A DNA stretch of 13,604 nucleotides, taken from Bifidobacteriaceae bacterium. Lineage in GTDB: Bacteria; Actinomycetota; Actinomycetes; Actinomycetales; WQXJ01. How positions within the stretch are numbered: the first letter of the stretch is position 1; each line of letters starts with the position of its first letter. Below the pieces are notes generated by a model that saw only the letters and a list, made by a program, of their open reading frames with translations, was not told where the DNA came from and did no database searches. Positions 1 through 13,604 of this stretch are shown here, piece after piece. The stretch lies in assembly GCA_031279575.1 (NCBI GenBank), contig JAITIG010000026.1, positions 1-13,604 on the forward strand. Direction: 5' to 3'. A program made the translations under genes and the position numbers.

Positions 1-3
1 TGG

Positions 4-1704
4 TCAGATGTGGGCTGAGGGGCTGGGATTGCGGTTTGCGCGGGGAGCGCGATGCGGCCGCGGCCGGCTCGGCCGGGGGCTCGGCGAAGGCCGGCGCCGC
101 AGCCGACCCGGCGAGGGCCGGCGCCGCGGAACTTCGGCCACCGCCGGCGGCGGCGCGGGCGACCCGGCGGGGGCCGACACGACGGGCGACCCGGCGACCA
201 TCGGCACCGCAGGGGCTTCTGACAGGGCCAACGCCGCGGGCGAGCCGGCGGCGGGCGGCTCGGCGACGGCTTCGGCGGGCGACCCGGCCCCCACCAGCCC
301 CGCGGGCGGCTCGGCGACGGCATCGACGGACGACCCGGCGCCCACGGGCGCCGCGGGGGACTCGGCCGGGGCTTCGGCGGGGGCTTCGGCGACGGCATCG
401 GCGGGGGACTCGGCGATCTTGGCGTTGCCGGGCAGGCGGATGAACCGGCCCAGCACCAAAATGGACAGGTAAAGCCCGGCCACAGTCCACACCACGCCGG
501 TGTAGCCGCCGGCGCTCAAAATGGCCGCGGTCAAAGCCGGGCCAAGGAAGGAGGCCAGCCCCCGGGCCAACCCAGAGGCGGCCAGGGCGGAGCCCGTCTC
601 GCCCCGCGAGTGGGCCAGGAACAGGGCGTTCAGTGGGATAAAAGCGCTGACGCCAAAGCCGAGCAGGACCCCGCCCAAAGCGATCACCGCGAAGTTCGGC
701 CCCACCAGTTTGGGCGCGTAGTAGAAGAACAGCACAGCGGCGGCGCACAGCGGGCCGGCCCCGAAGCGGACCACATTGGTCCAGCCCAGGGCGTTGCCGA
801 TGTTCCCCCACACCACGTTCCCAACCACCGCGAAAATCCCCACAATGGTGAACACCAGCACGGCGCCGGACTCGCCCAGGCCGATCTCGTCGGTCAGGTA
901 GGTGACGTAGAAGGCGGACAGCGCCAGCGGCCCAATCAGATTGATGGCGCCGATCACCGAGCAGACGGCGATCTTCGGCACCCGGCAAATGATCGACAAG
1001 CTGCGCACCACCGCCAGGCCCATCGGCCGCCGCTGGGCCGCCGTCAGCACCACGCCCGGCCCGCGCATGAACCCCAGCCCGATGCCGCCGCCCGCCACCG
1101 CCAAAGCCAGCCCCGCCCACAGCGCGCCAATCTCCCCCACCCGGGGCAACAGGAAGCTGGCCGCGTAGGAGCCCAGGATTTGCAGGCCCAGCGAGTAGAA
1201 AAAGAAGAACCAGCCGCTGACCGGCCCGTGCTCGGCGGGCTTTGACTTCTTCATCAGCCAGGCGAAGAACCCCATGGCGAAGAACGGGTAGCCCAGCCCG
1301 CGGCAGGAATAGACCGCCACCAGCAGCGCGAAGTCGCCGGAGGGGATGCCCACAGTGATGAACAAGGTGTCGAAGACCGCAAAGCTGGCCAGCCCCGCCA
1401 TCATGATCCGCCGCGGTCCGATGGCGTCTGCCAGCGCCATCGACAAGAACGACCCAACCGCCACCACCACGCCGTAGAAGGTCAGCAGCAACGCGGACAC
1501 GCCCAGCTCGTAGCCCAGCTCGGTGTGGGCGAAGTCGGTGATCCAGACGCTCTCGAGCCCGTCGCCGATGAGAAACAAGGTGACGCCGAGCAAGCTGGCC
1601 GCCACCCCCTTGGGGAACCGCACCTTGCCCAGCAGCCCAGTGGTGTGAACATTGTCCGAGCCGCCCTGCGCCGCGCTCGCGGCCGTTTGCGTTGCTTGCC
1701 TCAT
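4..1704 (-). CDS. MFS transporter, polyol permease (RbtT/CsbX-like) type, with long low-complexity C-terminal tail
   Basis: Predicted inner-membrane secondary transporter of 566 aa. The hydrophobic core runs from about residue 35 to 428 and can hold 12 membrane segments. The first helix region contains LTLFLIGDGLES-like sequence (VTLFLIGDGLES), followed by CRGLGYPFFAMGFF, which resembles the polyol permease branch (ribitol/arabitol carriers, CsbX) as I remember it; the substrate is inferred only. The loop 2-3 motif ALADAIGPRR is present. I chose the ATG at 1704 because AGGAGG sits 8 bases upstream; an in-frame TTG at 1740 has no such site. The family is usually about 430 aa, so the last ~138 residues are extra: Ala/Pro/Glu-rich with a 17-residue repeat (AVAEPPA twice), then an Arg/Pro-rich end. 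A DeoR regulator lies just upstream on the same strand. The gene ends at the window edge with TGA, so further operon genes may lie beyond it. Confidence 0.85.
   Translation of the reverse strand: MRQATQTAASAAQGGSDNVHTTGLLGKVRFPKGVAASLLGVTLFLIGDGLESVWITDFAHTELGYELGVSALLLTFYGVVVAVGSFLSMALADAIGPRRIMMAGLASFAVFDTLFITVGIPSGDFALLVAVYSCRGLGYPFFAMGFFAWLMKKSKPAEHGPVSGWFFFFYSLGLQILGSYAASFLLPRVGEIGALWAGLALAVAGGGIGLGFMRGPGVVLTAAQRRPMGLAVVRSLSIICRVPKIAVCSVIGAINLIGPLALSAFYVTYLTDEIGLGESGAVLVFTIVGIFAVVGNVVWGNIGNALGWTNVVRFGAGPLCAAAVLFFYYAPKLVGPNFAVIALGGVLLGFGVSAFIPLNALFLAHSRGETGSALAASGLARGLASFLGPALTAAILSAGGYTGVVWTVAGLYLSILVLGRFIRLPGNAKIAESPADAVAEAPAEAPAESPAAPVGAGSSVDAVAEPPAGLVGAGSPAEAVAEPPAAGSPAALALSEAPAVPMVAGSPVVSAPAGSPAPPPAVAEVPRRRPSPGRLRRRPSPSPRPSRPRPHRAPRANRNPSPSAHI
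251..321 (-). repeat. 51-base period repeat in the MFS C-terminal tail
   Basis: The 20-base string GCGGGCGGCTCGGCGACGGC (plus strand) occurs at 251-270 and 302-321, a 51-base spacing that equals a 17-residue protein repeat containing AVAEPPA. Similar imperfect units flank it within the Ala/Pro-rich tail coding region (about 7-420). Confidence 0.7.
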
Positions 1705-1712
1705 GTTGATGG

Positions 1713-1718
1713 CCTCCT
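1713..1718 (-). promoter_or_regulatory. Ribosome binding site of the MFS gene
   Basis: On the minus strand this reads AGGAGG, followed by an 8-base spacer and ATG at 1704. It decides the start in favour of 1704 over the upstream in-frame TTG at 1740. Confidence 0.8.
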
Positions 1719-1740
1719 CGCCGAACTTCGTCGTTGGCAA

Positions 1741-1914
1741 CCAGTCTGGGCGGGCGCGCGGCGGGCGCGTTAGTGGATTCGAGTTTGATTCAAGGTTCGG
1801 TTCGCGACCACTTGACCACCTAAAACCGCAGGTGGCACGGCATCGTGCGGCGGGGACTTGTGGGATTGGCCACCTGAGCGTGACCGGTGTCTGCGGCCTT
1901 GGCGGCCGGGGCAG
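1741..1914. promoter_or_regulatory. deoR-MFS intergenic region with clustered short repeats (candidate operators)
   Basis: No gene is seen here. It is richer in A/T than its surroundings and holds short repeats. On the plus strand, GATTC or GGTTC begins at 1776, 1787, 1794 and 1799. GACCAC is repeated 8 bases apart at 1806 and 1814. CCACCT (1816-1821) and AGGTGG (1830-1835) form an inverted repeat, and CCACCT recurs at 1870. GCACG/CGTGC (1835-1848) forms a small hairpin with a 4-base loop. DeoR-family proteins often bind several short repeats near the promoter they repress, so these are candidate sites for the adjacent regulator. I could not find a convincing -35/-10 pair, and there is no T tract that would make the hairpins classical terminators. 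Confidence 0.4.
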
Positions 1915-2703
1915 CTAGACGCGGAACACCCGGGGGCCGAGCGCCCCGAACACGGCCGCCTTGGCCCGGGGCAATTCGCGGCCCGTGATGACCGCCTCGA
2001 AATCCGCCAAGCTGGCGAACCGGACAAAGGTGGAGACGCCAAACTTGTAGTGGGCGCCGACAAAGATGCGCCGCCGCGCCGCCTGGCAGGCCGCCTCTTT
2101 GACCGCCGCCACCAGCGGATCCGGGGTGGTCAGCCAGCCGTCCTCGGTGACGCCGTTGGCCCCGACAAAAGCCAGATCCGGTTGGACCGTGCGCAGCATG
2201 TCGGTGGCCCAGCGGTCCACCACGCCCTGGGTGGACGGCCGGATGCGCCCGCCCACCATGATGACCTCGCCCGCCCGGCGGCGCACAATCGCGTTGGCCA
2301 CCGGCAGCGACGTGGTCAGCACAGTCAGCCCGATGGCGGGCAGCGCCTGCGCGATCAACGACGGCATGTAGCCCTCGTCGATGAAAATGGTCCGGGCGTC
2401 CTCCAGGTGGCGGGGCGCCTCCGCCGCGATGCGCTGCTTTTCCTCGACGCTGCTGGTTTGGCGGGAGTCGAGGCCGGTCTCGACCACGCCGCTGGCCACC
2501 GCGTGGACCACGCCGTAGCTGCGGGCCACCAGTTTGCGCTCCTCCAGGCGGCGCAGGTCGCGCCGGACGGTCTCGCCGGAGACCTCGAAGGCGGCCGCCA
2601 ACTCGGCCACGCTCAGGCTGGCGCGCTCCCGGATCAACTCGATCATGCGGGCCCGGCGCGCCCGGCCGGCCCGCTGGTTGGCGGCTTGGTCGCTGGACGG
2701 CAT
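1915..2703 (-). CDS. DeoR-family transcriptional regulator
   Basis: A 262-aa protein, the usual length for the DeoR family. An N-terminal winged helix-turn-helix covers about residues 20-65, with the family signature SVAELAAAFEVSGETVRRDL followed by RRLEE. The C-terminal sensor domain (about 80-250) resembles an isomerase fold and in the family binds phosphorylated sugars or polyols. Recognisable blocks are FIDEGYMPS (107-115), TTSLPVANAI (130-139), GGRIRP (151-156) and GANGVTEDG (181-189). The usual effector-binding motif D-x-G-(T/S)-T reads DEGYM here, and the usual S-K-F-G reads HYKFG (218-222), so the ligand pocket looks diverged. The gene is on the same strand as the polyol-type transporter and upstream of it; that the transporter is its target is inferred. 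It ends in TAG, the only gene-terminal TAG in the window. Confidence 0.9.
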   Translation of the reverse strand: MPSSDQAANQRAGRARRARMIELIRERASLSVAELAAAFEVSGETVRRDLRRLEERKLVARSYGVVHAVASGVVETGLDSRQTSSVEEKQRIAAEAPRHLEDARTIFIDEGYMPSLIAQALPAIGLTVLTTSLPVANAIVRRRAGEVIMVGGRIRPSTQGVVDRWATDMLRTVQPDLAFVGANGVTEDGWLTTPDPLVAAVKEAACQAARRRIFVGAHYKFGVSTFVRFASLADFEAVITGRELPRAKAAVFGALGPRVFRV

Positions 2704-2831
2704 CGGCGGCCTGCCTCAGCGCCCCGCCGGCGCCGACCGGGGGCGGGTCAGCCCGCCGCGGGTCAAGTCCTGCCCAGTCATCAACTCCCGCTCCCGCCGA
2801 TCCGCCCCCAGGGCGTAGCTGAAACCTTTCC

Positions 2832-2846
2832 CACTGCGGCGCAGTG
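2832..2846. promoter_or_regulatory. Dyad CACTGC-ggc-GCAGTG (candidate operator)
   Basis: A perfect 6-base inverted repeat with a 3-base centre. It lies about ten bases downstream of the candidate deoR -10 element, around or just after the expected transcription start. That is a classical repressor position and fits autoregulation by DeoR or another regulator. It could also fold as a short 5' leader hairpin. Confidence 0.4.
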
Positions 2847-2855
2847 CCCGCCCAG

Positions 2856-2861
2856 ATTTTA
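2856..2861 (-). promoter_or_regulatory. Candidate -10 element for deoR
   Basis: On the minus strand this reads TAAAAT, five of six matches to TATAAT, in a short A/T-rich island within very GC-rich DNA. Transcription would start near 2849 and give a leader of about 145 bases before the deoR ATG. No good -35 hexamer is visible at the right distance. Confidence 0.4.
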
Positions 2862-2898
2862 CAACCTCCCCCCGCGCCGGGCCTTGGCGCGAGCCTTT

Positions 2899-2916
2899 CA
2901 GGCCCCCGCCAGCGCG
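2899..2916 (+). repeat. 18-base direct repeat, copy 1
   Basis: CAGGCCCCCGCCAGCGCG occurs here and again, identical, at 3033-3050. Both copies lie in the non-coding region between deoR and the hydrolase gene. Confidence 0.6.
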
Positions 2917-2983
2917 CCCGCCGCCAGTAGCTAGACCCGGCTCAGCCTCAATCCACCGCCCCCGGGGCGGGCTCGTGCGGGCT

Positions 2984-3003
2984 CGGGCGCCTTCGGGCGC
3001 CCG
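2984..3003. other. Stable hairpin with UUCG tetraloop
   Basis: CGGGCGCC-TTCG-GGCGCCCG gives a perfect 8-bp G/C stem closed by the cUUCGg tetraloop on the plus strand, one of the most stable RNA hairpins known. No T tract follows on either strand. It lies between the divergent deoR and hydrolase genes, upstream of the candidate hydrolase -10, so it is not placed as an ordinary gene-end terminator. Confidence 0.6.
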
Positions 3004-3032
3004 GATCGGACCATGGCGGGGTTTACCGAGGC

Positions 3033-3050
3033 CAGGCCCCCGCCAGCGCG
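3033..3050 (+). repeat. 18-base direct repeat, copy 2
   Basis: Identical to 2899-2916. This copy sits immediately upstream of the candidate -10 of the hydrolase gene, where a -35 hexamer or activator site would be expected. Confidence 0.6.
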
Positions 3051-3054
3051 GCAG

Positions 3055-3060
3055 TACGAT
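3055..3060 (+). promoter_or_regulatory. Candidate -10 element for the hydrolase gene
   Basis: TACGAT fits the actinobacterial -10 pattern TAnnnT. It would start transcription near 3067 and leave a leader of about 40 bases containing the AGGAGG at 3096. No clear -35 is visible; the 18-base repeat occupies that region. Confidence 0.35.
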
Positions 3061-3095
3061 GGCGTGCGGGCGGCGCGCCCTGGACTGCGAGGCTG

Positions 3096-3101
3096 AGGAG
3101 G
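3096..3101 (+). promoter_or_regulatory. Ribosome binding site of the hydrolase gene
   Basis: AGGAGG lies 4 bases before the ATG at 3106. The spacing is slightly short but the match is perfect, and it supports this start. Confidence 0.7.
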
Positions 3102-3105
3102 GCCG

Positions 3106-4086
3106 ATGGAGATCGAACTGGTCGACCCGTCGCTGCGGCGGCTGGTGTCCCGGGTGGGCTCGGTAGATCTGTCCAAGGCCAGCGCCCGCCGCCTGGCCCG
3201 CCTGGTGGGGGGCTTGCAGGTGGCGCGGCCCGAACGCGGCGTCCAGATCACCCAGGTGCGGGCGGGCGCGGCCCGGCTGCGCCTCTACCGGCCGGCGGCC
3301 CCCCGCCAGGCCCGGCCCGCCGCCGGCCTGCTGTGGATCCACGGCGGCGGCTACCTGTTTGGCCGCGCCCGGCAAGACGACTTCCTCTGCGCCCGGGTGG
3401 CGCGCGAGCTTGGCCTGCCGGTGGCCTCAGCCGAATACCGCATGGCGCCCGAGCACCCCTTCCCGGCCGCGCTCGAGGATGTGGCGGCGGCCTGGGCTTG
3501 GCTGGCAGGCCAAGCGGACCGGGCCGAGAGCCGGGGCGCGGGGCCGGTGCGGCTCGGCATCGGCGGGGAAAGCGCGGGTGGCGGCCTGGCGGCCGGGCTG
3601 GTCCAACGCCTGCGTGACGCGGCCGGGCGGCAGCCCGCGGCGCAATGGCTGTTTGCGCCGATGCTGGATGACCGCACCGGCGCGAACCGCGACCTCGACC
3701 AGATTGAGCACTGGGTGTGGGCGAACAGCGCCAACCGGGCGGCCTGGCGCTTCTACCTCGGGGCCGAGCCGGGCGCGGCCGCCTTGCCGCCCTACGCCTC
3801 GCCCGGCCGCCGCGCAGACCTCTCCGGCCTGCCGCCCACCTACATCACCATGGGCGACATCGAACTCTTCCACGCCGAGGACTTGGCCTACGCCGAGCGC
3901 TTGGCGGCCGCCGGGGTGCCGGTCGCAACCGATGTGGTGCCAGGCGCGCCGCACGCCATCATCCACGCCGACCGCATCCCTGTGGCCCGCGCCGTGGTGA
4001 CCCGGGCCCTAGCCTGGCTCGCCGCAACCCTCGCCCCGCCCCCGGCGCCCGCGCCGCCCCCGAATGGCGCCGACCCGGGAATGTGA
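3106..4086 (+). CDS. Alpha/beta hydrolase, hormone-sensitive-lipase (HSL) type esterase
   Basis: A 326-aa probably cytoplasmic esterase or lipase; no signal peptide is seen. The oxyanion-hole motif HGGG is at residues 79-82 (WIHGGGYLFG). The nucleophile elbow GGESAGG places the catalytic serine at S156. The acid is probably D251 (TMGDIELF) and the base H283 (GAPHAII), so the triad looks complete. The block YRMAPEHPFPAALEDV (111-126) is typical of the family. The natural substrate cannot be read from sequence. The last ~17 residues are a Pro/Ala-rich tail. The gene stands alone on the plus strand, divergent from deoR, and converges on priA with only 11 bases between the stop codons and no evident terminator. 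Confidence 0.9.
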   Translation: MEIELVDPSLRRLVSRVGSVDLSKASARRLARLVGGLQVARPERGVQITQVRAGAARLRLYRPAAPRQARPAAGLLWIHGGGYLFGRARQDDFLCARVARELGLPVASAEYRMAPEHPFPAALEDVAAAWAWLAGQADRAESRGAGPVRLGIGGESAGGGLAAGLVQRLRDAAGRQPAAQWLFAPMLDDRTGANRDLDQIEHWVWANSANRAAWRFYLGAEPGAAALPPYASPGRRADLSGLPPTYITMGDIELFHAEDLAYAERLAAAGVPVATDVVPGAPHAIIHADRIPVARAVVTRALAWLAATLAPPPAPAPPPNGADPGM

Positions 4087-4097
4087 GGCGCGGGCCG

Positions 4098-4853
4098 TCA
4101 CGCCGCTGGGTCTGGGGCGGGGAGGGGGCCTTCGGCGGCGGCTAGGGCCTGGCGCAGGGTGAAGGCGCCGGCGTAGAGGGCCTTGCCCACGATGGCGCCC
4201 TCGACCCCCTGGGGGACCAAGCGGCGCAGCGCCGCCAAATCGGCCAGGGAGGCGATGCCGCCGGAGGCCACCACCGGCGCGTCGGTGCGGGCGCAAACCG
4301 CCCGCAGCAGCTCTAGGTTGGGGCCCTGCAACGTGCCGTCCCGCGTCACATCAGTCACCACATAGCGCCGGCAGCCGTCCTGGTTCAAGCGCTCCAGCAC
4401 CTCCCACAGGTTGCCGCCGGGCCTGGTCCAGCCCCGCGCGGCCAAAGTCTCGCCGCGCACATCGAGGCCCACCGCGATCCGCTCGCCGTGCCGCTGGAGC
4501 GCCCGCCGGGTCCACTCCGGGTCCTCCAAGGCGGCGGTGCCCAAGCTGACCCGCTTGGCGCCGGTGGCCAAAGCCCGGCTCAGCGAGGCGTCATCGCGGA
4601 TGCCGCCGGACAGCTCGACGCGCACATCGAGCGCCGCCACCACCCCTTCGAGCAGGCCGGCGTTGGAACCGCGGCCGAAGGCCGCGTCCAGGTCCACCAG
4701 GTGGACCCAGGAGGCCCCGCCCCGCTGCCAATCCATGGCCGCCGCCAGCGGGTCGCCGTAGAAGGTCTCAGACCCAGCTTCGCCTTGCACCAGGCGCACG
4801 GCCTGACCTGCGGAAACATCAACGGCGGGCAACAGTTCAAGCGGAGGTGTCAT
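4098..4853 (-). CDS. priA: Phosphoribosyl isomerase A (HisA; probably bifunctional HisA/TrpF)
   Basis: A 251-aa TIM-barrel isomerase that converts ProFAR to PRFAR, step four of histidine synthesis. Actinobacterial PriA enzymes usually also perform the TrpF step of tryptophan synthesis. Visible blocks are LLPAVDV (7-13), [12 protein letters not shown] (53-64), [10 protein letters not shown] (79-88), [11 protein letters not shown] (165-175) and VASGGI (195-200). The catalytic aspartates are D12 and D172. R140 and W142 (ARGW) correspond to the arginine and tryptophan used in the TrpF reaction of M. tuberculosis PriA, so I infer dual activity. The start overlaps the hisH stop as ATGA, and no strong Shine-Dalgarno precedes it, which points to translational coupling. 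It is the last gene of the his cluster here; hisF does not follow. The C-terminus has a short Ala/Pro-rich extension. Confidence 0.95.
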
Positions 4854-5491
4854 AGTGTTTCAATCCAGTTCTTGAGTAGGCGGGCACCGGCGTCGCCGGA
4901 CTTCTCGGGGTGGAATTGGGTGGCGCAAAGCGGCCCGTTCTCAACTGCGGCCACAAACGGGCCGCCATGCTCAGACCAGGTCACCAGCGGCGGCGCCAAC
5001 GGCCCCGGGTTTGGCGGGCCGGCGGGCGCGGCCAGCGGGAACTCCTGCGCCGCGTAGGAGTGGACAAAGTAGAAGCGCTGGTCCTCAAGGCCGCGAAACA
5101 AGCGCGTGCCGGCCGGCGGGCGCACCGGCGACCAGCCCATATGCGGCACCACGGGCGCCCGCAGGCGGGTCACCGCGCCGGGCCACTGCCCCAGCCCCGC
5201 AGCCCCGCTGCCGTGCTCCTCGCCGCGCTCGAACATGACTTGCAGCCCAACGCAGATCCCCAGCACGCCGCGCCCCCCGGCCAGCCGCCGCTCAATCAGC
5301 CGCGGCGCCTGGACGCTTTTGAGCCCCTCCATCACGGCCGCGAAGGCCCCCACGCCGGGCACTATCAGGCCGTCGGCCGCCATCGCCGCCGCCGGCTCGG
5401 CGCTCAGCTCGACGGCGGCCCCGGCCCGCAGCGCGGCGCGGCAAGCGCTGCGCACGTTGCCGAAGCCGTAGTCCAAGACCACAACTTTCAT
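4850..5491 (-). CDS. hisH: Imidazole glycerol phosphate synthase, glutamine amidotransferase subunit
   Basis: A 213-aa class I glutamine amidotransferase. It supplies ammonia to HisF (not in this window) for making imidazole glycerol phosphate and AICAR. The start [13 protein letters not shown] is typical. The catalytic triad is C80 (GICVGLQ), H194 and E196 (QFHPEKSG). Other family blocks are PGVGAF (45-50), PHMGW (116-120) and YFVHSYA (141-147). The ATG at 5491 was chosen because the protein aligns from its first residues and overlaps the upstream stop as ATGA; the same frame stays open far upstream, but that is antisense-like Arg/Gly-rich sequence over orf287. A Pro/Gly/Ala-rich stretch at about 154-168 is an unusual surface insertion. 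It is slightly longer than typical members (about 200-210 aa). Confidence 0.95.
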
Positions 5492-6351
5492 GCCTGGCCC
5501 GCCTCGTCGGCCTCGCCCGCCTGGCCTGCTTGGCCCGCCTGGCCCGGCTGGCCCGCCTCGCCGACCTCGCCCGCCTGGCCCGCCTGGCCCGGCTGGCCCG
5601 CCTCGCCGGCCTGGCCGGCCTCGACGGCCTGGTCCGCGCGGCCGGCCTGGCCCGCCTGGCCGGCCTGGCCCGGGCGGCCTTTGCGCCAGCGCCAGGGGGA
5701 CCGCCCCGAGGCCATCCGGGCCCTGGCCGCGATCACCGAGATCGCCTCGGCCGCCGTCAACTGCCCCACATCGATGGCCGCCTCCAGCGCCGCCTCGGCC
5801 GCCTCCGGGTCGATCAGCAAATCCTCCAGCAGTTGCGGCGACTGCGCCAAAGCCAACCCGGGCGCCACCCGCTCGCGCAACTCGCCGTCGATGAACAAGT
5901 AAGCCTGGATGTCGCCGGCCGCCGGGTCCTGGCTCGGCCCCAGGCGCATCAAGAACAGCGGCACGCCCTTCAGCGTGGCCGATGCCGTCCGCGCCGCCTC
6001 CAGCGCCGCCGCCTCGGCCGGGTTGTCCAGCACCGCGAAGCCCATGCCGCCCTCCGCCAAGGTGCGGGCGGCGATCTGCGGCCCCTTCAGCAACGCCGCC
6101 AGCAGGCGTTTGCCGCTCACGCCGAGCACCAGCACCGCCACCTGGCGGGCGGGCGGCGCCGCCTCGCCCAGCCCGTCCCCGGGGCCGGGCCAGCCCCCGG
6201 GGGCGGCGCTGGGCGGCGGCGGGGCGGAATCGTCCAGGGCGGCGCCGCCGGGCGCAAGGGGGCGGGCCTGGCCGGCCGGCGGCGCGCCGGGGGAGGACAA
6301 GAGCTCTTCGAGCGCCTGGTCCCAGTTGTCGCGCGGCGGCTGCTGGCTCAC
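5488..6351 (-). CDS. Uncharacterised protein in the his operon with Gly-Gln-Ala repeat tail
   Basis: A 287-aa protein of unknown function. It starts with GTG at 6351, overlapping the hisB stop (GTGA), and its TGA overlaps the hisH ATG, so it is embedded in the operon and surely translated with it. It has three parts. Residues 1-68 are a Pro/Ala/Gly-rich, probably disordered segment. Residues 69-213 form an Ala/Leu-rich soluble-looking domain with [23 protein letters not shown] and [11 protein letters not shown] blocks. After a basic linker (WRWRKGR, 220-226), residues 228-287 are exactly 20 triplets, mostly GQA or GEA. No signal peptide, membrane segment or catalytic motif is seen. Hypothetical genes between hisB and hisH occur in other actinobacteria, but I cannot assign this one to a named family. 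Confidence 0.8.
5491..5670 (-). repeat. 9-base tandem repeat encoding 20 Gly-Gln-Ala-like triplets
   Basis: A low-complexity array of 9-base units (CTGGCCCGC-like on the plus strand) encodes triplets such as GQA, GEA and GQP. Glycine is first in 17 of 20 triplets. A higher-order unit exists: a 33-base stretch at 5531-5563 is repeated identically at 5576-5608, a 45-base (15-residue) period. The array ends directly at the hisH start codon. Confidence 0.85.
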
Positions 6352-6947
6352 AGCGAGCCTTTGGTGGACGGCACGCCGCTGACCCGCGGGTCCAGCGCCA
6401 CCGCCGCCCGCAAGGCCCGGGCCACCGCCTTGAACTCCGCCTCCACAATGTGGTGCGGGTCGCGCCCCCCCAGCAGGCGGACATGCAAGGCGAGGCCCGC
6501 ATTCAGCGCCAGCGACTCCAGCGCGTGCCGCCCCAAAGACCCCGTGAAATGGCCCCCGATCAGCGCAAACGCCAGCTCGGGCGGCTCGCCTGAGGCGGTG
6601 AAATAGGGCCGCCCGGAAATGTCGACGACAGCTTGGGCAAGGGCCTCGTCAAGCGGCACGGTGGCCTCGCCGAAGCGCGCGATGCCGCGCTTGTCGCCCA
6701 AGGCCTGCCTCAGCGCCTGACCCAGCACAATCGCCGTGTCCTCCACCGTGTGGTGGACGTCGACTTCGAGGTCGCCGCTGGCGGCCACCGCCAAGTCGAT
6801 CAGCGAGTGGCGCGCCAAGGCCGCCAGCATGTGGTCGTAGAAACCGACCCCGGTTGAGACCTGCGCCGCCCCCGTTCCGTCCAAATCAAGCGTCACCTGG
6901 ACGTTTGACTCGTTGGTGGCGCGTTTGACTGTGGCTGTCCGGTTCAT
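6348..6947 (-). CDS. hisB: Imidazoleglycerol-phosphate dehydratase
   Basis: A 199-aa monofunctional dehydratase that converts imidazole glycerol phosphate to imidazole acetol phosphate. Family motifs are [10 protein letters not shown] (32-41), [15 protein letters not shown] (62-76), [10 protein letters not shown] (84-93), VDISGRP (108-114), [10 protein letters not shown] (165-174) and GVPSTKG at the C-terminus. The metal-binding histidines and glutamates of the two half-repeats (around H65-H66/E69 and H165-H166/E169) are present. There is no N-terminal histidinol phosphatase domain as in E. coli, so the phosphatase step must be encoded elsewhere. The ATG at 6947 overlaps the hisC stop as ATGA, and its TGA overlaps the GTG of the next gene. 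Confidence 0.97.
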
Positions 6948-8041
6948 TCCAGCTCCTCACGGATTTGGGCGAGCGCGCGCAAGAAGGCCAGTGTCTCGCC
7001 TTCCGCGCCTACCGATACCCTAAGCCACCCGGGCGGCCCGACCTCCCGGATGACCACGCCGAGGGCGAGCAGTTTGGCCCACACGGCGTGCCTGTCCGGG
7101 AATTTGCCGAACAGGACAAAGTTCGCCTCCGAGGCCGCCACCTGGAACCCCATCGCGCCGAGCGCCGCCGCCAAGCGGTCGCGCCGCTCCTGGATGTCCG
7201 CCACGTGCCCCAGCATCAGCCCGGCGTGGTCCAAGGCGGCCAGGGCGGCGGCCTGGGTGAGCCCGGACAGGTGGTAGGGCAGCCGCACTGTGCGCAGGTA
7301 GGAGACCAGTTCCGGGTCGGCCGCCAGGTAGCCCAGCCGCACCCCGGCGAAGGCGAAGGCCTTCGACATGGTGCGGCTGACGGCGACGTGCGGGTACTTC
7401 GCCACCAACTCCAGGGCGGAGGGCTGGGTGGCGCGGCGGAACTCGGCGTAGGCCTCGTCCACCACCAGCACGGCCCGCCCGTCGAGGTGTTTGGCCAGGG
7501 ATTCGACCACCGCCAGGGGCGTGTACGCGCCGGTCGGGTTGCCGGGGTTGTCCAGCAGCACCACAGTGGGCGCCACCCGGTCGATGTGCCCGATGCCGCT
7601 CCCCAGGTCCAAGGAGAAGTCCGCCTCCCGTTTGCCCGGCCGCCAAAGGGTGTGCGTGTCGCGGGCATACTCCGGGTACATCGAGTAGCTCGGCTCGAAC
7701 GCGGTGGCCACCCGCCCGGGGCCGCCGAAGGCCTGCATAACGTGCAGCAGGACCTCGTTTGAGCCGTTGGCCGCCCAGATCATCCGCGGCGTGATGTCCG
7801 CCACCCCGGCCTCGCGCACCAGGTAGGCGGCCAGGGCGGCGCGCAGCTCCGCGAAGTCCCTGTCCGGGTAGCGGTTGGCCTGCTCGGCCGCCTGGCGGAC
7901 GCGCCGGACCAGGCTTTCGACCACCTCGGGGGGCGGCGGGTAGGGGTTCTCGTTGACGTTGAGGCGCACCGGGGCCGCCGGGTGGGGCGCCCCGTAGGGC
8001 CGGGCGGCCCCGATGTCCGGCCTGACGGGCAGCCGGCTCAC
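6944..8041 (-). CDS. hisC: Histidinol-phosphate aminotransferase
   Basis: A 365-aa fold-type I PLP aminotransferase that converts imidazole acetol phosphate to histidinol phosphate. [11 protein letters not shown] (28-38) is the HisC-specific N-terminal block. NPGNPTG (165-171), VVDEAYAEF (193-201) and [17 protein letters not shown] (222-238) follow, with K227 as the PLP Schiff-base lysine and R235 and R341 as phosphate/substrate-binding arginines. I chose GTG at 8041 rather than the longer open frame from 8149 because the extra N-terminus is Arg/Gly-rich with no homology, and GTG overlaps the hisD stop as GTGA, matching every other junction in this operon. Confidence 0.96.
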
Positions 8042-9447
8042 GCTGCCGGCCCTCCGCCCGGGCTTGGCGCCGGCCCGGCCGGCGGCCCCTCGAAGCGCCC
8101 GCCGCCGGCCGGCCCGGCCGCGTCGGCGGCGCCGGCCAGGTGGGCGCAAGCCCGCGCCCGCACCGCCTCGCCGTGCGCGGGCAGGTCCTCCGCCAGGGCA
8201 AACGCCTCGATCAGGGGGACCACGCCGTCCAAGGCGGCGGCGCTGTATTGGACCTGTTGGACGGATTTGAGGAACGCCGTCACGCCCAGGCCGGAGGCGT
8301 AGCGGGCCGTCCCGCCGGTGGGCAGCACATGGTTGGAGCCGGCCATGTAGTCCCCCAGCGGCACCGGGCTGTAGGGGCCAATGAAGATCGCCCCCGCCGA
8401 ATGGATCGCCTCGGCGGCCCGGACCGGGTCCGCCACCTGCAACTCGAGGTGCTCGGCGGCGTAAACATTGGCCACCGCCAGCGCCTGGCTGAGCGAGTCC
8501 ACCAGCACAATCGCGCTTTGCTGGCCGCCCAGGGCGGCCTTGACGCGGTCGCGGTGCTTGGCCGCCTCGGCCCGGCGGGCCACCGCCGCGCCCACCTGGC
8601 GGGCCAAATCCGGCGAGTCGGTGATCAGCACGGCGGCCGCCAGCGGGTCGTGCTCGGCTTGGCTGACCAGATCGGCCGCCACAAACTCGGCGTTGGCGCC
8701 GCCGTCCGCCACCACCGCGATCTCGGTTGGGCCAGCCTCGGAGTCAATCCCCACCCGGCCCATCACCAGGCGTTTGGCCGTGGCGACGTAAATGTTGCCG
8801 GGGCCGGTCACCACGTCCACTTTGGCCGCCAGGCCCGGCACGCCATAGGCGAATAGCCCGATGGCGCCCACCCCGCCGGCGGCGTAGACCTCCTCCACGC
8901 CCAGCAGCGCGCAGGCGGCCAGCACATCCGGGTGCGGCAAACCGCCGCAGGCGGCCTGCGGCGGCGAGGCCACCGCCAGCTCCGCCACCCCCGCCTCTTG
9001 GGCGGGCACCGCGTTCATGATCACCGAGCTGGGGTAGGCCGCCAACCCGCCCGGCACATACAACCCCACCCGGCGCACCGGCACCCAGCGCTGCGAGACC
9101 ACCGCGCCGGGGGCCAGCTCCAAGGTGTTCTCCGGCGGCACCTGGGCGGCGTGGACCCGCCGGGTGCGCTCGATGGCCAGCTCCATGGCGGCGCGGACCT
9201 TCGGGTCCAACTTGGCCAGGGCCTCCCGCAAGGCCCGCCGGGGCAAGCGCAAATGGGGCGGCCGCACCCGGTCGAAGCGCTCGGCTTGGTCTAGGATCGC
9301 CGCCGCGCCGCGCGCCGCCACATCCTCCAGCAGGGGGCGGACCTGGGCGGCTGCCGCGTCGACCCCCAATTCGGCCCTGGGGAGCAGGGCCTCGATCTGC
9401 TCCGGCGCCAACTCCCCCAGGCCCCGCGCGTCGATGGTCCTCAACAT
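8038..9447 (-). CDS. hisD: Histidinol dehydrogenase
   Basis: A 469-aa zinc enzyme that oxidises histidinol to histidine using two NAD+, the last step of the pathway. Family blocks are VPGGLAAYPSSVIMNAVPA (131-149), TGPGNIYVATAKR (214-226), AGPTEIAVVAD (238-248) and SQAEHDP (262-268). Zinc ligands correspond to Q263, H266, D366 (GDYMAGSNHVLPT) and H425 (PAHGEAVRAR); the catalytic pair is E332-H333 (AEHLEL). I placed the start at ATG 9447 (MLRTIDARG fits the usual N-terminus) rather than GTG 9477, because a -10-like TAGACT ends 7 bases before this ATG and would make the transcript leaderless. The enzyme usually has about 430-440 residues; the last ~30 here are an Ala/Gly/Pro-rich tail. First gene of the his operon. 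Confidence 0.96.
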   Translation of the reverse strand: MLRTIDARGLGELAPEQIEALLPRAELGVDAAAAQVRPLLEDVAARGAAAILDQAERFDRVRPPHLRLPRRALREALAKLDPKVRAAMELAIERTRRVHAAQVPPENTLELAPGAVVSQRWVPVRRVGLYVPGGLAAYPSSVIMNAVPAQEAGVAELAVASPPQAACGGLPHPDVLAACALLGVEEVYAAGGVGAIGLFAYGVPGLAAKVDVVTGPGNIYVATAKRLVMGRVGIDSEAGPTEIAVVADGGANAEFVAADLVSQAEHDPLAAAVLITDSPDLARQVGAAVARRAEAAKHRDRVKAALGGQQSAIVLVDSLSQALAVANVYAAEHLELQVADPVRAAEAIHSAGAIFIGPYSPVPLGDYMAGSNHVLPTGGTARYASGLGVTAFLKSVQQVQYSAAALDGVVPLIEAFALAEDLPAHGEAVRARACAHLAGAADAAGPAGGGRFEGPPAGPAPSPGGGPAA

Positions 9448-9454
9448 GCCCACG

Positions 9455-9460
9455 AGTCTA
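9455..9460 (-). promoter_or_regulatory. Candidate -10 element of the his operon (leaderless type)
   Basis: On the minus strand TAGACT is followed by 7 bases and the hisD ATG, so transcription would begin at or next to the start codon. No Shine-Dalgarno is visible upstream of hisD. The same TAGACTCG string precedes dnaE. The gap to the upstream gene is only 58 bases, so no T-box or attenuator leader fits between this promoter and hisD. Confidence 0.55.
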
Positions 9461-9505
9461 TTAGCCCCCTGTGACACGCCACTGCGCCGCGGCGGGCGGG
9501 CGGCT

Positions 9506-10030
9506 TCACCAGGTGCGGCCGAACATCGCCCTCCAGGCCAGCGCCCCGGTCGCCACCAGCGCCTCGGCCAGCAGCCACAGCGCCAGCAGCCCCGGCGAAG
9601 TCAAAACCAAGGGCGCGCGCGCCACCGCGCCAACGGCCGGCGGGCCCAGGCCGCCGCTCAAAGCGCCGCCGCTGAACAGGCAGGCCACCGCCCCCGCCGC
9701 CCCGCCGCCAAGCCACAGCCCGGCCCGCCGCCCGGCCGCCGGCCGCCCCGCCAGCCCCGCCAAGCAGGCGCCGGCCGCCAGTCCCGCCACCCCCGTCAGC
9801 ACCCCGAACCAGACGTCCTGGGCGGCGCCAAAGCCGTAGTCGCCCTCGCCCAGCCACAACAGCCCGGTCCAGCGCGCCGCCGGCCGGGGCGCCAGCGCCA
9901 GCCAGACCGCCCCCAGCGCCAGCCCCAACCCCGTCTGCCCGCCCAGCGCGACCAGCGCCCGGTCGCCCCACCCCGGGCGCCAGCCCGCCGCCGCCCGATG
10001 GCGCCCCGGCGCCTGGCCGGCGCGGCTCAC
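9506..10030 (-). CDS. Small four-helix membrane protein, function unknown (possibly DUF2567-like)
   Basis: A 174-aa integral membrane protein. It starts at GTG 10030, overlapping the dnaE stop as GTGA, which is why I chose this start although the frame is open further upstream inside dnaE antisense-frame sequence. Hydrophobic segments are at about 25-47, 73-93, 103-124 and 140-165, with a conserved-looking loop LGEGDYGFGAAQDVW (60-74) between the first two. The N-terminus is basic (RHRAAAGWR), so it probably lies inside the cell. The layout loosely resembles the actinobacterial DUF2567 family, but that is memory-based and weak. It is coupled to dnaE translation and lies 58 bases upstream of hisD; no role in either system can be read from the sequence. 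Confidence 0.7.
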   Translation of the reverse strand: MSRAGQAPGRHRAAAGWRPGWGDRALVALGGQTGLGLALGAVWLALAPRPAARWTGLLWLGEGDYGFGAAQDVWFGVLTGVAGLAAGACLAGLAGRPAAGRRAGLWLGGGAAGAVACLFSGGALSGGLGPPAVGAVARAPLVLTSPGLLALWLLAEALVATGALAWRAMFGRTW

Positions 10031-12645
10031 ACCACGCAATTCGACCCCAGCGTGGCCTTGAGGTCGGCGTACAGCGGATCGGATTTGGACACCCTGAGGC
10101 CGCTCCCCAAAGCCACCACCGTGGTGCGGCTGGGGGCGGTCACCCGCAAATGCACCGGCGAGCCGCCCGGATGCGCCTGGAGGACCTGCTTCAGCTTGGC
10201 CGCGACAGCCTCGTTGACCCGGTTGGCGGGCAGGGTGATCTCCAACGGCCCGGCCTGCGCCGAGCCCGCCGCCAAGGCCGCCAACGGCTTCATCTCCTGG
10301 ACAAACAGGCTCGCCCCAGACCGCTGGTCGCGCGTCAGGCGGCCGGCCAGGACCACCAGCGTGTCGTTCGCCAACTGCTCGGCGTACCGGTTGTAGGTCT
10401 GCTGGAAAAACTTCACCTCGACCGCGCCGTCGAGGTCCTCCAGCGTCGCCAACGCCCACAAGGTGCCCTTCTTGGTGGTCTTGCGCTCCAAAGAGCCCAA
10501 CAACCCGGCCACCTCCACCCAAGTCCCCTCCGGGTTGGCCTCGGCGTCGGCCAAGGCGGCCGTGGAATGGGAGGCCGCCCGCTTCAAATCGGCCGCCAAA
10601 CCGGACAGGGGGTGGTCGGAGACATACAACCCCAGCATCTCCCGCTCAAAGGCCAGCTTGACAGCCGAGTCCCACTCCGGCAGCGGCGGGATGGCGGTCG
10701 CCAAGCCGCTCGCCGCCTCAGCCAAATCGCCAAACAAATCGAACTGGCCCACCGCCTCATTCCGCTTCAAGCCCATCACAGCGTCCACCGCCTCCTCGTA
10801 GACGGAGGCCAAAGCCCGCCGGGTGGCCGCAAAGGCGTCGAACGCGCCCGCTTTGATCAAAGACTCGATGACCCGTTTGTTGCAGACCGCCACCGGCACC
10901 TTGGACAAGAAGTCCAAGAACGACTCGAAAGCGCCCTTCGCCTCGCGGGCCCGGATGATGCCCTCGACCACTCCCCCGCCCACATTTCTGACCGCCGTCA
11001 GGCCAAACCTGATGTCCCGCCCGGCCGGCGTGAAGTCCGCCACCGAGGAGTTGACGTCCGGCGGCAGCACCGTGATCCCCATCCGGCGGCATTCCGCCAA
11101 ATAGAGCGGCAGCCGGTCTTTGTCGCCGCGCACCGAGGTCAGCAGCGCCGCCATGTACTCCACCGGGTAATGGCACTTGAGGTAGGCCGTCCAATAGGAC
11201 AACAGCCCGTAGGCGGCCGAGTGGGCTTTGTTGAAGGCGTAATCCGAGAACGGCACCAAAATGTTCCACAGGGTTTTGATGGCCGCCTCCGAGTAGCCGT
11301 TGGCCCGCATGCCCTGGCTGAACGGCACATACTCGTGGTCCAGGATCTCCTTTTTCTTTTTGCCCATGGCGCGGCGCAGCAAATCCGCCTGCCCCAAGGT
11401 GTACCCGGCCACCTTCTGGGCGATCGACATGACCTGCTCTTGGTACACGATCAACCCGAAGGTGCCCTCCAGGATCTCCCGCAGCGGCTCGGCCAATTCC
11501 GGGTGGATCGGCGTGATCGCCTCGCGCTTGTTCTTCCGGTCGGCGTATTTGTTGTGCGAGTCGGCGCCCATCGGCCCCGGCCGGTACAGCGCCCCGACCG
11601 CCGAGATGTCCTCGAAGTTGTCCGGCCGCAGCCGTTTGAGCAGCGACTGCATGCCGCCGCCGTCGAGTTGGAACACCCCCAGCGTGTCGCCGCTGGTGAG
11701 CAGGCCGTAAGTGGCGGCATCGTCCAACGGCAGCTCTTCCAGCACCAGACGCTGGTGGCCGTTGAGCACGATGCCGTCCAGCGCGTCCTCCAAGATGGTC
11801 AGGTTGCGCAAACCCAAGATGTCCATCTTGACCAGCCCCAGGTCCTCGCAGGCGGGGTAGGCGAACTGGGTGATGGTGGCGCCGTCCTGCTCGCGGCGCA
11901 TGATCGGGATGACATCCATCAACGGCTCGCAGGACATGATGACCCCGGCCGCGTGCACACTCCACTGGCGGGCCAGGCCCTCCAACTCGCGGGCGGTGGC
12001 CAGCACCCGGGCGGCATCGGCGTCCGCCTCGACCAGGGCGCGGAACTCGGCCGCCTCCTTGTAGCGCTCGTGGGCCGGGTCGTAGGCGCCCGCCAAGGAC
12101 AGATCCTTGCCCTGGACCGGGTCGGGAAAAGCCTTGGTCAGCCGCTCCCCCACGGCGAACGGGTAGCCCTGCACCCGGGCCGAGTCCTTCAAAGCCTGCT
12201 TGGCTTTGATCACCCCGTAGGTGACAATCTGGGAGACCCGCTCCGAGCCGTACTTCTCGGTCACATAGCGGATCACCTCGCCCCGGCGGCGCTCGTCGAA
12301 GTCGACGTCGAAGTCCGGCAGGGATTCGCGCTCCGGGTTCAAGAAGCGCTCAAAGATCAGGCCGTTCTTGAGCGGGTCCAGGTCGGTGATGCCCATGGCG
12401 TAGGCCGCCATCGACCCGGCGCCGGAGCCGCGGCCGGGCCCCACCCGGATGCCTTGGGCGCGGGCCCAGTTGATGAAGTCCGCCACCACCAGGTAGTAGC
12501 CGGCGTAGCCTTTGGAGGCGATGACGTCTTCCTCGTAGGCGGCTTGCCGCGCCGCCGCGGCCGGCACCTGCGGCCCGAAGCGCCGGGCCAGGCCGCGCTC
12601 GACTTCTTTGATGAACCAGGAGACCTCGTCCTCGCCGGCGGGCAC
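10027..12645 (-). CDS. dnaE: DNA polymerase III alpha subunit DnaE1, polymerase part (after in-frame TAG)
   Basis: 872 codons in the same frame as the upstream PHP part, beginning at the GTG that directly follows the TAG at 12646-12648. It carries the whole polymerase. Palm and fingers include GPGRGSGAGSMAAYA (69-83), PDFDVDF (110-116, catalytic D113 and D115) and LVKMDILGLRN (271-281, catalytic D275). FNKAHSAAYG (471-480) is also typical. QFDLF (634-638) is an excellent beta-clamp binding motif. An OB-fold region follows (about 707-785: WVEVAGLLG ... VLAGRLTRDQ), then a C-terminal domain to 872. Together with the N-part this gives 1181 codons, like M. tuberculosis DnaE1 (1184). No other lesion is seen. 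Whether this piece is made by readthrough, by reinitiation, or the TAG is a sequence error is open. Confidence 0.93.
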   Translation of the reverse strand: MPAGEDEVSWFIKEVERGLARRFGPQVPAAAARQAAYEEDVIASKGYAGYYLVVADFINWARAQGIRVGPGRGSGAGSMAAYAMGITDLDPLKNGLIFERFLNPERESLPDFDVDFDERRRGEVIRYVTEKYGSERVSQIVTYGVIKAKQALKDSARVQGYPFAVGERLTKAFPDPVQGKDLSLAGAYDPAHERYKEAAEFRALVEADADAARVLATARELEGLARQWSVHAAGVIMSCEPLMDVIPIMRREQDGATITQFAYPACEDLGLVKMDILGLRNLTILEDALDGIVLNGHQRLVLEELPLDDAATYGLLTSGDTLGVFQLDGGGMQSLLKRLRPDNFEDISAVGALYRPGPMGADSHNKYADRKNKREAITPIHPELAEPLREILEGTFGLIVYQEQVMSIAQKVAGYTLGQADLLRRAMGKKKKEILDHEYVPFSQGMRANGYSEAAIKTLWNILVPFSDYAFNKAHSAAYGLLSYWTAYLKCHYPVEYMAALLTSVRGDKDRLPLYLAECRRMGITVLPPDVNSSVADFTPAGRDIRFGLTAVRNVGGGVVEGIIRAREAKGAFESFLDFLSKVPVAVCNKRVIESLIKAGAFDAFAATRRALASVYEEAVDAVMGLKRNEAVGQFDLFGDLAEAASGLATAIPPLPEWDSAVKLAFEREMLGLYVSDHPLSGLAADLKRAASHSTAALADAEANPEGTWVEVAGLLGSLERKTTKKGTLWALATLEDLDGAVEVKFFQQTYNRYAEQLANDTLVVLAGRLTRDQRSGASLFVQEMKPLAALAAGSAQAGPLEITLPANRVNEAVAAKLKQVLQAHPGGSPVHLRVTAPSRTTVVALGSGLRVSKSDPLYADLKATLGSNCVV

Positions 12646-12648
12646 CTA
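12646..12648 (-). other. In-frame amber (TAG) codon inside dnaE
   Basis: The frame reads ...MPRF-TAG-GTG-PAGEDEVSWF..., with both flanks fitting a continuous DnaE1 protein and no shift of frame. It lies between the PHP domain and the polymerase core. A GTG codon follows immediately, but no Shine-Dalgarno-like sequence is visible just upstream. Confidence 0.95.
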
Positions 12649-13566
12649 GAAGCGCGGCATGTAGCGGCCGGGGGCGGAGGCGAAGGCCACCTCGCAGCGC
12701 TCCGCCACGGCCAGGGTGTTGTCGCAGGCCTCGGGCAGCTCGCGCCAGATTTGGCGCATCTCCTCGGAGGATTTCAGGTAGTAGCCCTCGCCGTCGAACT
12801 TGAACCGGGTTGGGTCGTCCAAGGTTTTGCCGGATTGGACGCACAGCAGGGCCGAATGGGCGGCGGCGTCCTCAGGCGCGGTGTAGTGCAGGTCGTTGGT
12901 GGCCAGCAGCGGCGCCCCGATGTGCTTGGCCAGGCGCAGCAGGTCCTTCAGGACGCGCCGCTCGATGTCCAGCCCGTGGTCCATCAGCTCGACAAAATAG
13001 TTGTCCCGGCCCAAGATGTCCTGGAACTCGCCGGCCGCGATCACCGCCTCGTCCCACTGCCCCAGCCTGAGCCTGGTCTGCACCTCGCCAGAGGGGCAGC
13101 CGGTGGTCCCGATCAAGCCGCTGGCATAGCGGTGGAACAGGTCGCGGTCCATCCTGGGCTTGTAGAACTGCCCTTCCAGGGAGGCCAGCGAGCCCATCCG
13201 GAACAGGTTGTGCATCCCGTCGGTGGTCTGCGCCAGCAGGGTCATGTGGGTGTAGGCGCCGCCGGCTGAGACGTCATCGTCCCGCTGCGCCTCGGTGCCC
13301 CACAAGACGCGCTTTTTGTCTTGGCGGGCCAGCCCCGGGGTGAGGTACGCCTCCAGGCCGATGATGGGTTTGACGCCCGCCTTGACGGCCGCCGTCCAAA
13401 ACGCGTGGGCCCCGAACAAGAAGCCGTGGTCGGTTGTCGCCAGGGCCTGCTGGCCCAGCATTTCGCAGCGTTTCAGCAGGTCAGCGATGCGCGCGGCCCC
13501 GTCCAGGAGGGAGTACTCGGTGTGGACGTGAAGGTGGGCGAAGCCTTCCTTGCCGGTGCGCGTCAT
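12646..13566 (-). CDS. dnaE: DNA polymerase III alpha subunit DnaE1, N-terminal PHP part (ends at in-frame TAG)
   Basis: This is the polymerase-and-histidinol-phosphatase (PHP) domain plus the linker of DnaE1; 306 aa from ATG 13566, or 308 aa from ATG 13572. All nine metal-binding residues that make the M. tuberculosis DnaE1 PHP domain an active proofreading exonuclease are present. Numbered from the upstream ATG at 13572, they are H15 and H17 (HLHVHTEY), D24, H49 (TTDHG), E74 (GLEAYLTPG), H109, C159 (TTGCPSGE), D227 and H229 (ATNDLHYT). Proofreading activity is therefore expected if the domain is connected to, or assembles with, the polymerase. I favour ATG 13566 because TAGACT at 13575-13580 is too close to the first ATG to serve it. 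The piece stops at TAG after MPRF, where other DnaE1 proteins simply continue. Confidence 0.92.
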   Translation of the reverse strand: MTRTGKEGFAHLHVHTEYSLLDGAARIADLLKRCEMLGQQALATTDHGFLFGAHAFWTAAVKAGVKPIIGLEAYLTPGLARQDKKRVLWGTEAQRDDDVSAGGAYTHMTLLAQTTDGMHNLFRMGSLASLEGQFYKPRMDRDLFHRYASGLIGTTGCPSGEVQTRLRLGQWDEAVIAAGEFQDILGRDNYFVELMDHGLDIERRVLKDLLRLAKHIGAPLLATNDLHYTAPEDAAAHSALLCVQSGKTLDDPTRFKFDGEGYYLKSSEEMRQIWRELPEACDNTLAVAERCEVAFASAPGRYMPRF

Positions 13567-13574
13567 GGTCATCG

Positions 13575-13580
13575 AGTCTA
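13575..13580 (-). promoter_or_regulatory. Candidate -10 element of dnaE (leaderless type)
   Basis: On the minus strand TAGACT is followed by CG, a first ATG, ACC and a second ATG at 13566, eight bases after the hexamer. Transcription would start at about the second ATG. A small inverted repeat (CCGCC-TCT-GGCGG on the plus strand, 13585-13597) lies just upstream. The sequence ends at 13604, so the -35 region is only partly visible. Confidence 0.5.
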
Positions 13581-13604
13581 ATCACCGCCTCTGGCGGCCC
13601 CCCC

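Follow-up and report, generated by a model that had tools for sequence, protein, structure and literature searches.

Introduction

Actinobacterial DnaE1 with a PHP exonuclease is represented by the structures 7pu7 and 5lew, both of which we take to be of mycobacterial origin. In the enzyme of Mycobacterium tuberculosis the PHP domain covers residues 1-300 and the palm residues 301-450 (PMC5636811), and the metal site of the PHP domain is described by the motif HHDHEH[C/H]DH (PMC12926913). Interrupted polymerase genes have also been described. The split DnaE of cyanobacteria is a replicative polymerase gene in two pieces with an intein, and other polymerase genes are fragmented, usually by frameshift, some perhaps as a result of sequencing or assembly errors (PMC3919608). 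Errors of assembly are reported to account for many of the internal stops and frameshifts seen in assembled bacterial genomes (PMC11017572). In the present study, we examined the dnaE1 gene of contig JAITIG010000026.1 (assembly GCA_031279575.1, Bifidobacteriaceae bacterium), the 13,604 nucleotides of which were analysed as a whole and are called the window. The gene is interrupted by a single in-frame TAG near the border between its PHP and polymerase parts. This TAG is probably a consensus error of sequencing or assembly in the 13.6-kb contig, or else a very recent and unrepresentative nonsense variant.

Results

The dnaE1 frame lies on the minus strand and is made up as follows.

12649..13572, minus strand: first part of dnaE1, the PHP domain, 308 codons from the ATG at 13572 (Pfam PF02811, residues 13-199, 155 bits; 91.1% identity to the closest relative, P0122)
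12646..12648, minus strand: in-frame TAG that separates the PHP part from the polymerase part (sense codons aligned in relatives)
12643..12645, minus strand: GTG directly 3' of the TAG (Val codon in most relatives read; no Shine-Dalgarno pairing upstream)
10027..12645, minus strand: second part of dnaE1, with palm, thumb, fingers, HhH and OB regions, 872 codons ending in TGA (Pfam PF07733, PF17657, PF14579 and PF01336; 83.9% identity to P0122)

The TAG (minus strand, 12648-12646) is present in the given sequence and interrupts a frame that is otherwise intact, which runs from the ATG through 308 codons to 12649 and, after the stop, from the GTG at 12645 through 872 codons to the TGA at 10029-10027. 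In the second piece the Pfam matches are DNA_pol3_alpha (residues 10-278), finger (281-450), HhH_6 (523-612) and OB (723-788), so that PHP, Pol3, finger, HhH and OB follow in order across both pieces. The given sequence does not code for them as one unbroken chain, as the relatives seen do; the close relatives with a single protein (P0122, P0124, P0125 and P0126) have 1176-1179 amino acids, and the two pieces together have the normal length of DnaE1. The nine metal-site residues of the PHP domain and the aspartates of the polymerase are all present, as read by eye in the translation. P0122 matches 7pu7 over residues 6-1177, and the window gene has the same domain order and catalytic residues as 7pu7 and 5lew but carries one TAG near the PHP/palm border. 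Judged from the sequence, it is an ordinary actinobacterial dnaE1. The first-pass annotation, made from the letters alone, had reported the TAG, the frame of 308 and 872 codons, the identity as dnaE1, a sum equal to a full-length enzyme and intact catalytic residues, and in all these points it was borne out.

Two other observations concern the same site. An open frame of 1039 amino acids, antisense to dnaE, spans the TAG (10150-13269, plus strand) and is probably a by-product of high G+C content. The word CTAG occurs 7 times in the window (1-13604), where base composition would predict about 34, and one of the seven contains the in-frame TAG.

The annotation had proposed that close relatives be compared for the same TAG, and none of those seen shares the break. 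In the nearest genus, all 10 genomes gave a close dnaE1 match (64-78% identical) with no in-frame stop; two of these matches are partial, that of G003 being an open frame of 942 amino acids at a contig edge that covers the site, and that of G005 starting at query residue 152, so that the site is left uncovered. An order-wide search of 396 genomes gave a match in 395, and among the 150 matches listed none has a stop inside; weaker and possibly broken dnaE1 matches would be among those beyond the 150. Conservation of the same in-frame stop in at least two related genomes, a mark of a readthrough gene, was found neither in the genus nor among the listed matches of the order. At 90% identity, the protein clusters of the two dnaE1 parts (P0001 and P0121) have one member each, and therefore no independent sequence backs or contradicts the TAG base. 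As far as seen, the TAG is private to contig JAITIG010000026.1.

Of 20 aligned relatives, 10 have Pro at the position of the stop, 3 have Ala, Asp and Gln are found in 2 each, and Glu, Ser and Ile in one each. The closest relative, P0122, has Glu there at the protein level; Gln is coded by CAG at this position (loci L085 and L103; genome G008). With a looser pattern, which matched 218 of 240 proteins, the residue was Pro in 171, Asp in 23, Gly in 11, Ala in 6, Glu in 2, Ser in 2, and Gln, Leu and Thr in one each, counts which show only that Pro is commonest at this linker residue. A further set of residue counts was left out of account, because it contains misplaced matches of the pattern (the second rows of L028 and L078, and L031) and because 27 loci gave no residue or escaped the pattern. 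The position tolerates many residues, as judged from the alignment with the 20 relatives. The annotation had expected Pro, Asp or Glu, and had held that, if relatives have Pro, TAG would be at least two changes away and a simple error less likely. This argument fails, because the position is variable, close relatives carrying Glu (P0122) and Gln (CAG), and because TAG is one substitution away from CAG and from one Glu codon. Of the 10,620 single-base changes possible in the gene, 352 make a stop, 250 of them TAG.

The TAG aligns, by hand count, with residue 310 of 7pu7. It would lie about ten residues past the PHP/palm border, provided that 7pu7 follows the numbering of PMC5636811, a match in numbering that we infer. 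In a structure model of P0122 (mean pLDDT 78.7, pTM 0.63, 24 sequences), the aligned residue 306 falls in a predicted coil between the helices 277-289 and 313-328. The earlier statement that the break falls exactly in the inter-domain linker has to be qualified, as the break is near the domain border and not exactly at it. Among the 352 possible nonsense changes, 127 fall outside all Pfam matches. A hotspot of breaks at the linker was considered and rejected, as the 120 PHP fragments listed end at scattered places, 9 of them in the P0122 bin 300-319 and 14 in the bin 320-339. Among the database proteins, P0007, a PHP fragment of 304 amino acids from a contig of 3,872 bases, has its end at the linker residue of the TAG, and P0123 is a polymerase of 876 amino acids on a contig of 3,991 bases, called from MPRF just before the linker residue; both may reflect a contig edge, the choice of the gene caller or a real break.

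Both parts of the gene are conserved. Of the columns otherwise invariant in the comparison with the 20 relatives, the window differs at none of 97 in its PHP part and at 3 of 292 in its polymerase part; the corresponding values of P0122 are 0 of 97 and 4 of 293. A set of 119 homologs was used to define columns with at least 97% conservation, and in the polymerase part the window deviates at 6 of these, where the median of the homologs is 1, the 95th percentile 9.1 and the value of P0122 15. Against five relatives, the nonsynonymous rate (dN) was 0.087-0.172 in the PHP part and 0.16-0.228 in the polymerase part, versus a synonymous rate (dS) of 0.69-2.08, which is partly saturated. Selection acted on the entire dnaE1 gene up to very recent times, which agrees with an error as well as with a very young mutation; as both parts are conserved, a real mutation would be very recent. 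A decayed pseudogene, which the annotation had already set aside, was rejected on the basis of the conserved columns, a dN well below dS and the absence of any other stop in either part. As a separate observation, dnaE residues 538, 548 and 585 are Ser, Cys and Ile, where 119 of 119 homologs have Gly, Ser and Phe; they lie within 48 residues, and the last adjoins a conserved aspartate.

Discussion

We infer that the base would be wrong or unrepresentative; what is shown is the TAG itself, the lack of such a stop in the relatives seen, a linker residue that varies, two conserved parts and clusters with a single member. The dnaE1 of the species would then code for one uninterrupted replicative polymerase, the TAG would be a consensus error or a very recent nonsense change that some, but not all, of the sampled population carries, and the working DnaE1 would come from uninterrupted copies. 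We prefer this explanation because it accounts for the facts with least, and nothing positive speaks for readthrough or for a split enzyme. A parallel is found in the spurious internal stops of bacterial assemblies (PMC11017572): as there, a lone stop stands in an otherwise conserved gene and is absent from the relatives seen. Some points weigh against an error or a partial-population variant. The inter-domain coil is a somewhat fortunate place for a random change to fall: of the 352 possible nonsense changes, 33 lie in the stretch that separates the Pfam match of PHP from that of DNA_pol3_alpha, and 9 in residues 290-319. The six departures of the polymerase part may reflect natural divergence as well as errors, and comparison of the PHP part with the 20 relatives showed no excess of odd residues. 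Nevertheless, a linker position is unremarkable for a feature that was selected because it looked odd.

The annotation had listed an error, suppression, readthrough and a split enzyme as alternatives, which we judge to be the right set. A TAG that is real and fixed might be read through, by near-cognate decoding or by a suppressor tRNA private to the species, with enough full-length DnaE1 as the product; we regard this as unlikely, although it comes next after the explanation we prefer. The conservation of both parts in one frame is consistent with it, and there is a precedent in the in-frame stops common to orthologous prokaryotic genes under purifying selection (PMC7918605), where, as here, the TAG stands in a selected gene and a relative has CAG, the example being from Paenibacillus and Gln CAG standing at the present site in G008. 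However, this precedent falls short, because it rests on stops present in at least two genomes and here one sequence only carries the TAG, with none seen in the 10 genus genomes or in the 150 listed matches of the order. Furthermore, TAG is a working terminator: it ends dnaE1 in three of the 10 genus genomes (G001, G003 and G005, 0-1 codons after the match), the dnaE2-like gene in two of the six loci with a stop in reach (G006 and G004; a seventh locus runs off its contig) and the DeoR-type gene of the window itself. The gene of release factor 1 (RF1), prfA, was over the cut-off in 8 of the 10 genomes; of the other two, G003 matches in part, and the sole match of G004 is weaker and resembles the second match of the other genomes, which was taken for release factor 2. 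Since TAG ends dnaE1 and dnaE2-like genes and prfA is present in the relatives, lineage-wide decoding of TAG is unlikely, and a reassignment of TAG in the lineage was rejected on the same grounds. No CUA anticodon was found at 30 of the 31 tRNA matches of G008, and no tRNA gene in the window. Apart from the DeoR-type gene and the tRNA result for the window, these terminator, prfA and tRNA tests are tests of relatives. An RNA structure promoting readthrough was also rejected, as the 141 nucleotides around the TAG fold no better than their shuffled versions (z +0.98; 168 of 200 shuffles fold at least as well). In the literature on UAG readthrough in actinobacteria, none of the 8 papers listed (of 1,385) is relevant by title.

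An improbable alternative is that ribosomes terminate at a real TAG and begin again at the GTG next to it, giving a PHP protein and a polymerase chain that then assemble. The TAG and the GTG adjoin, the site is predicted to lie in a coil between helices, and both parts retain their domains, all of which would suit such a split, towards which the annotation had leaned. The GTG, however, occupies the place of an ordinary Val codon: most relatives read have GTG, GTC or GTT at this position (P0122 has Ala), and the 18 bases upstream pair with the anti-Shine-Dalgarno sequence at +0.2 kcal/mol, in comparison with -13.5 kcal/mol for the ATG at 13572 and -3.7 to -12.0 for six other gene starts of the window. 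Among the 113 in-frame ATG, GTG and TTG codons, 112 pair at least as well as this GTG, itself counted. A restart would hinge wholly on termination at the TAG. With a variable linker codon, a break found in no relative seen, no ribosome-binding site at the GTG and a TAG that works as terminator, the leaning to a functional split was not upheld. Separation of the PHP domain would also be costly unless assembly were efficient, because in E. coli polymerase III mutations of this domain, which are point changes and not a split, reduce the stability and activity of the whole polymerase (PMC3666897). That stop and restart would give a free PHP proofreading protein and a PHP-less polymerase, hence a two-chain replicase naturally split without an intein, is a shade more improbable still. 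In the literature on split dnaE with PHP or DNA polymerase III, none of the 10 papers listed (of 57) deals with such a split by title. A split intein, as in the cyanobacterial gene, was rejected since nothing is inserted here: the pieces abut in one frame and align with full-length relatives, with one codon between them. Least probable of all, and very doubtful, is that the TAG is real and this copy of dnaE1 is being lost because its task is carried out by another polymerase gene. In 8 of the 10 genus genomes there is indeed a second gene, which is DnaE2-like and has 33-36% identity over the best match, but each of the 10 shows only one close DnaE1, the window gene has no decay in its conserved columns or dN/dS, and DnaE2 is described as non-essential and error-prone (PMC12926913).

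Other features of the window

The proteins and loci nearest to those of the window come from metagenome-assembled genomes that carry the label Bifidobacteriaceae bacterium, among them Pcl387_bin30 and Gx481_bin29, bins presumably derived from termite guts. Termite-gut Bifidobacteriaceae are described in PMC11707648. The window has 72% G+C and contains hisD, hisC, hisB, hisH and hisA beyond dnaE. The gene order is dnaE, hisD, hisC, hisB to the end of the locus in L001, and dnaE, hisD, hisC, hisB, hisH, hisA in L002.

Between hisB and hisH lies an open reading frame (5488-6351, minus strand) with a tail of about 20 copies of a 9-base unit (repeat at 5492-5672), the product of which has a Gly-Gln-Ala/Gly-Glu-Ala pattern and a Pfam match to collagen repeat; in L002, the same place between hisB and hisH shows a weak match to the middle part of the protein. 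Near the contig end, a major-facilitator transporter (4-1740, minus strand) has a long C-terminal stretch rich in Ala, Pro and Glu, which is partly encoded by a 51-base repeat (251-381).

Conclusion

As it stands, the TAG of this window exemplifies how a lone internal stop in an essential gene of an assembly can be largely deflated by comparison with relatives. If the TAG were real and fixed, an essential replicase would tolerate an amber codon, either by readthrough or as two chains, and the organism would offer a natural test of whether PHP proofreading needs a covalent link to the polymerase.

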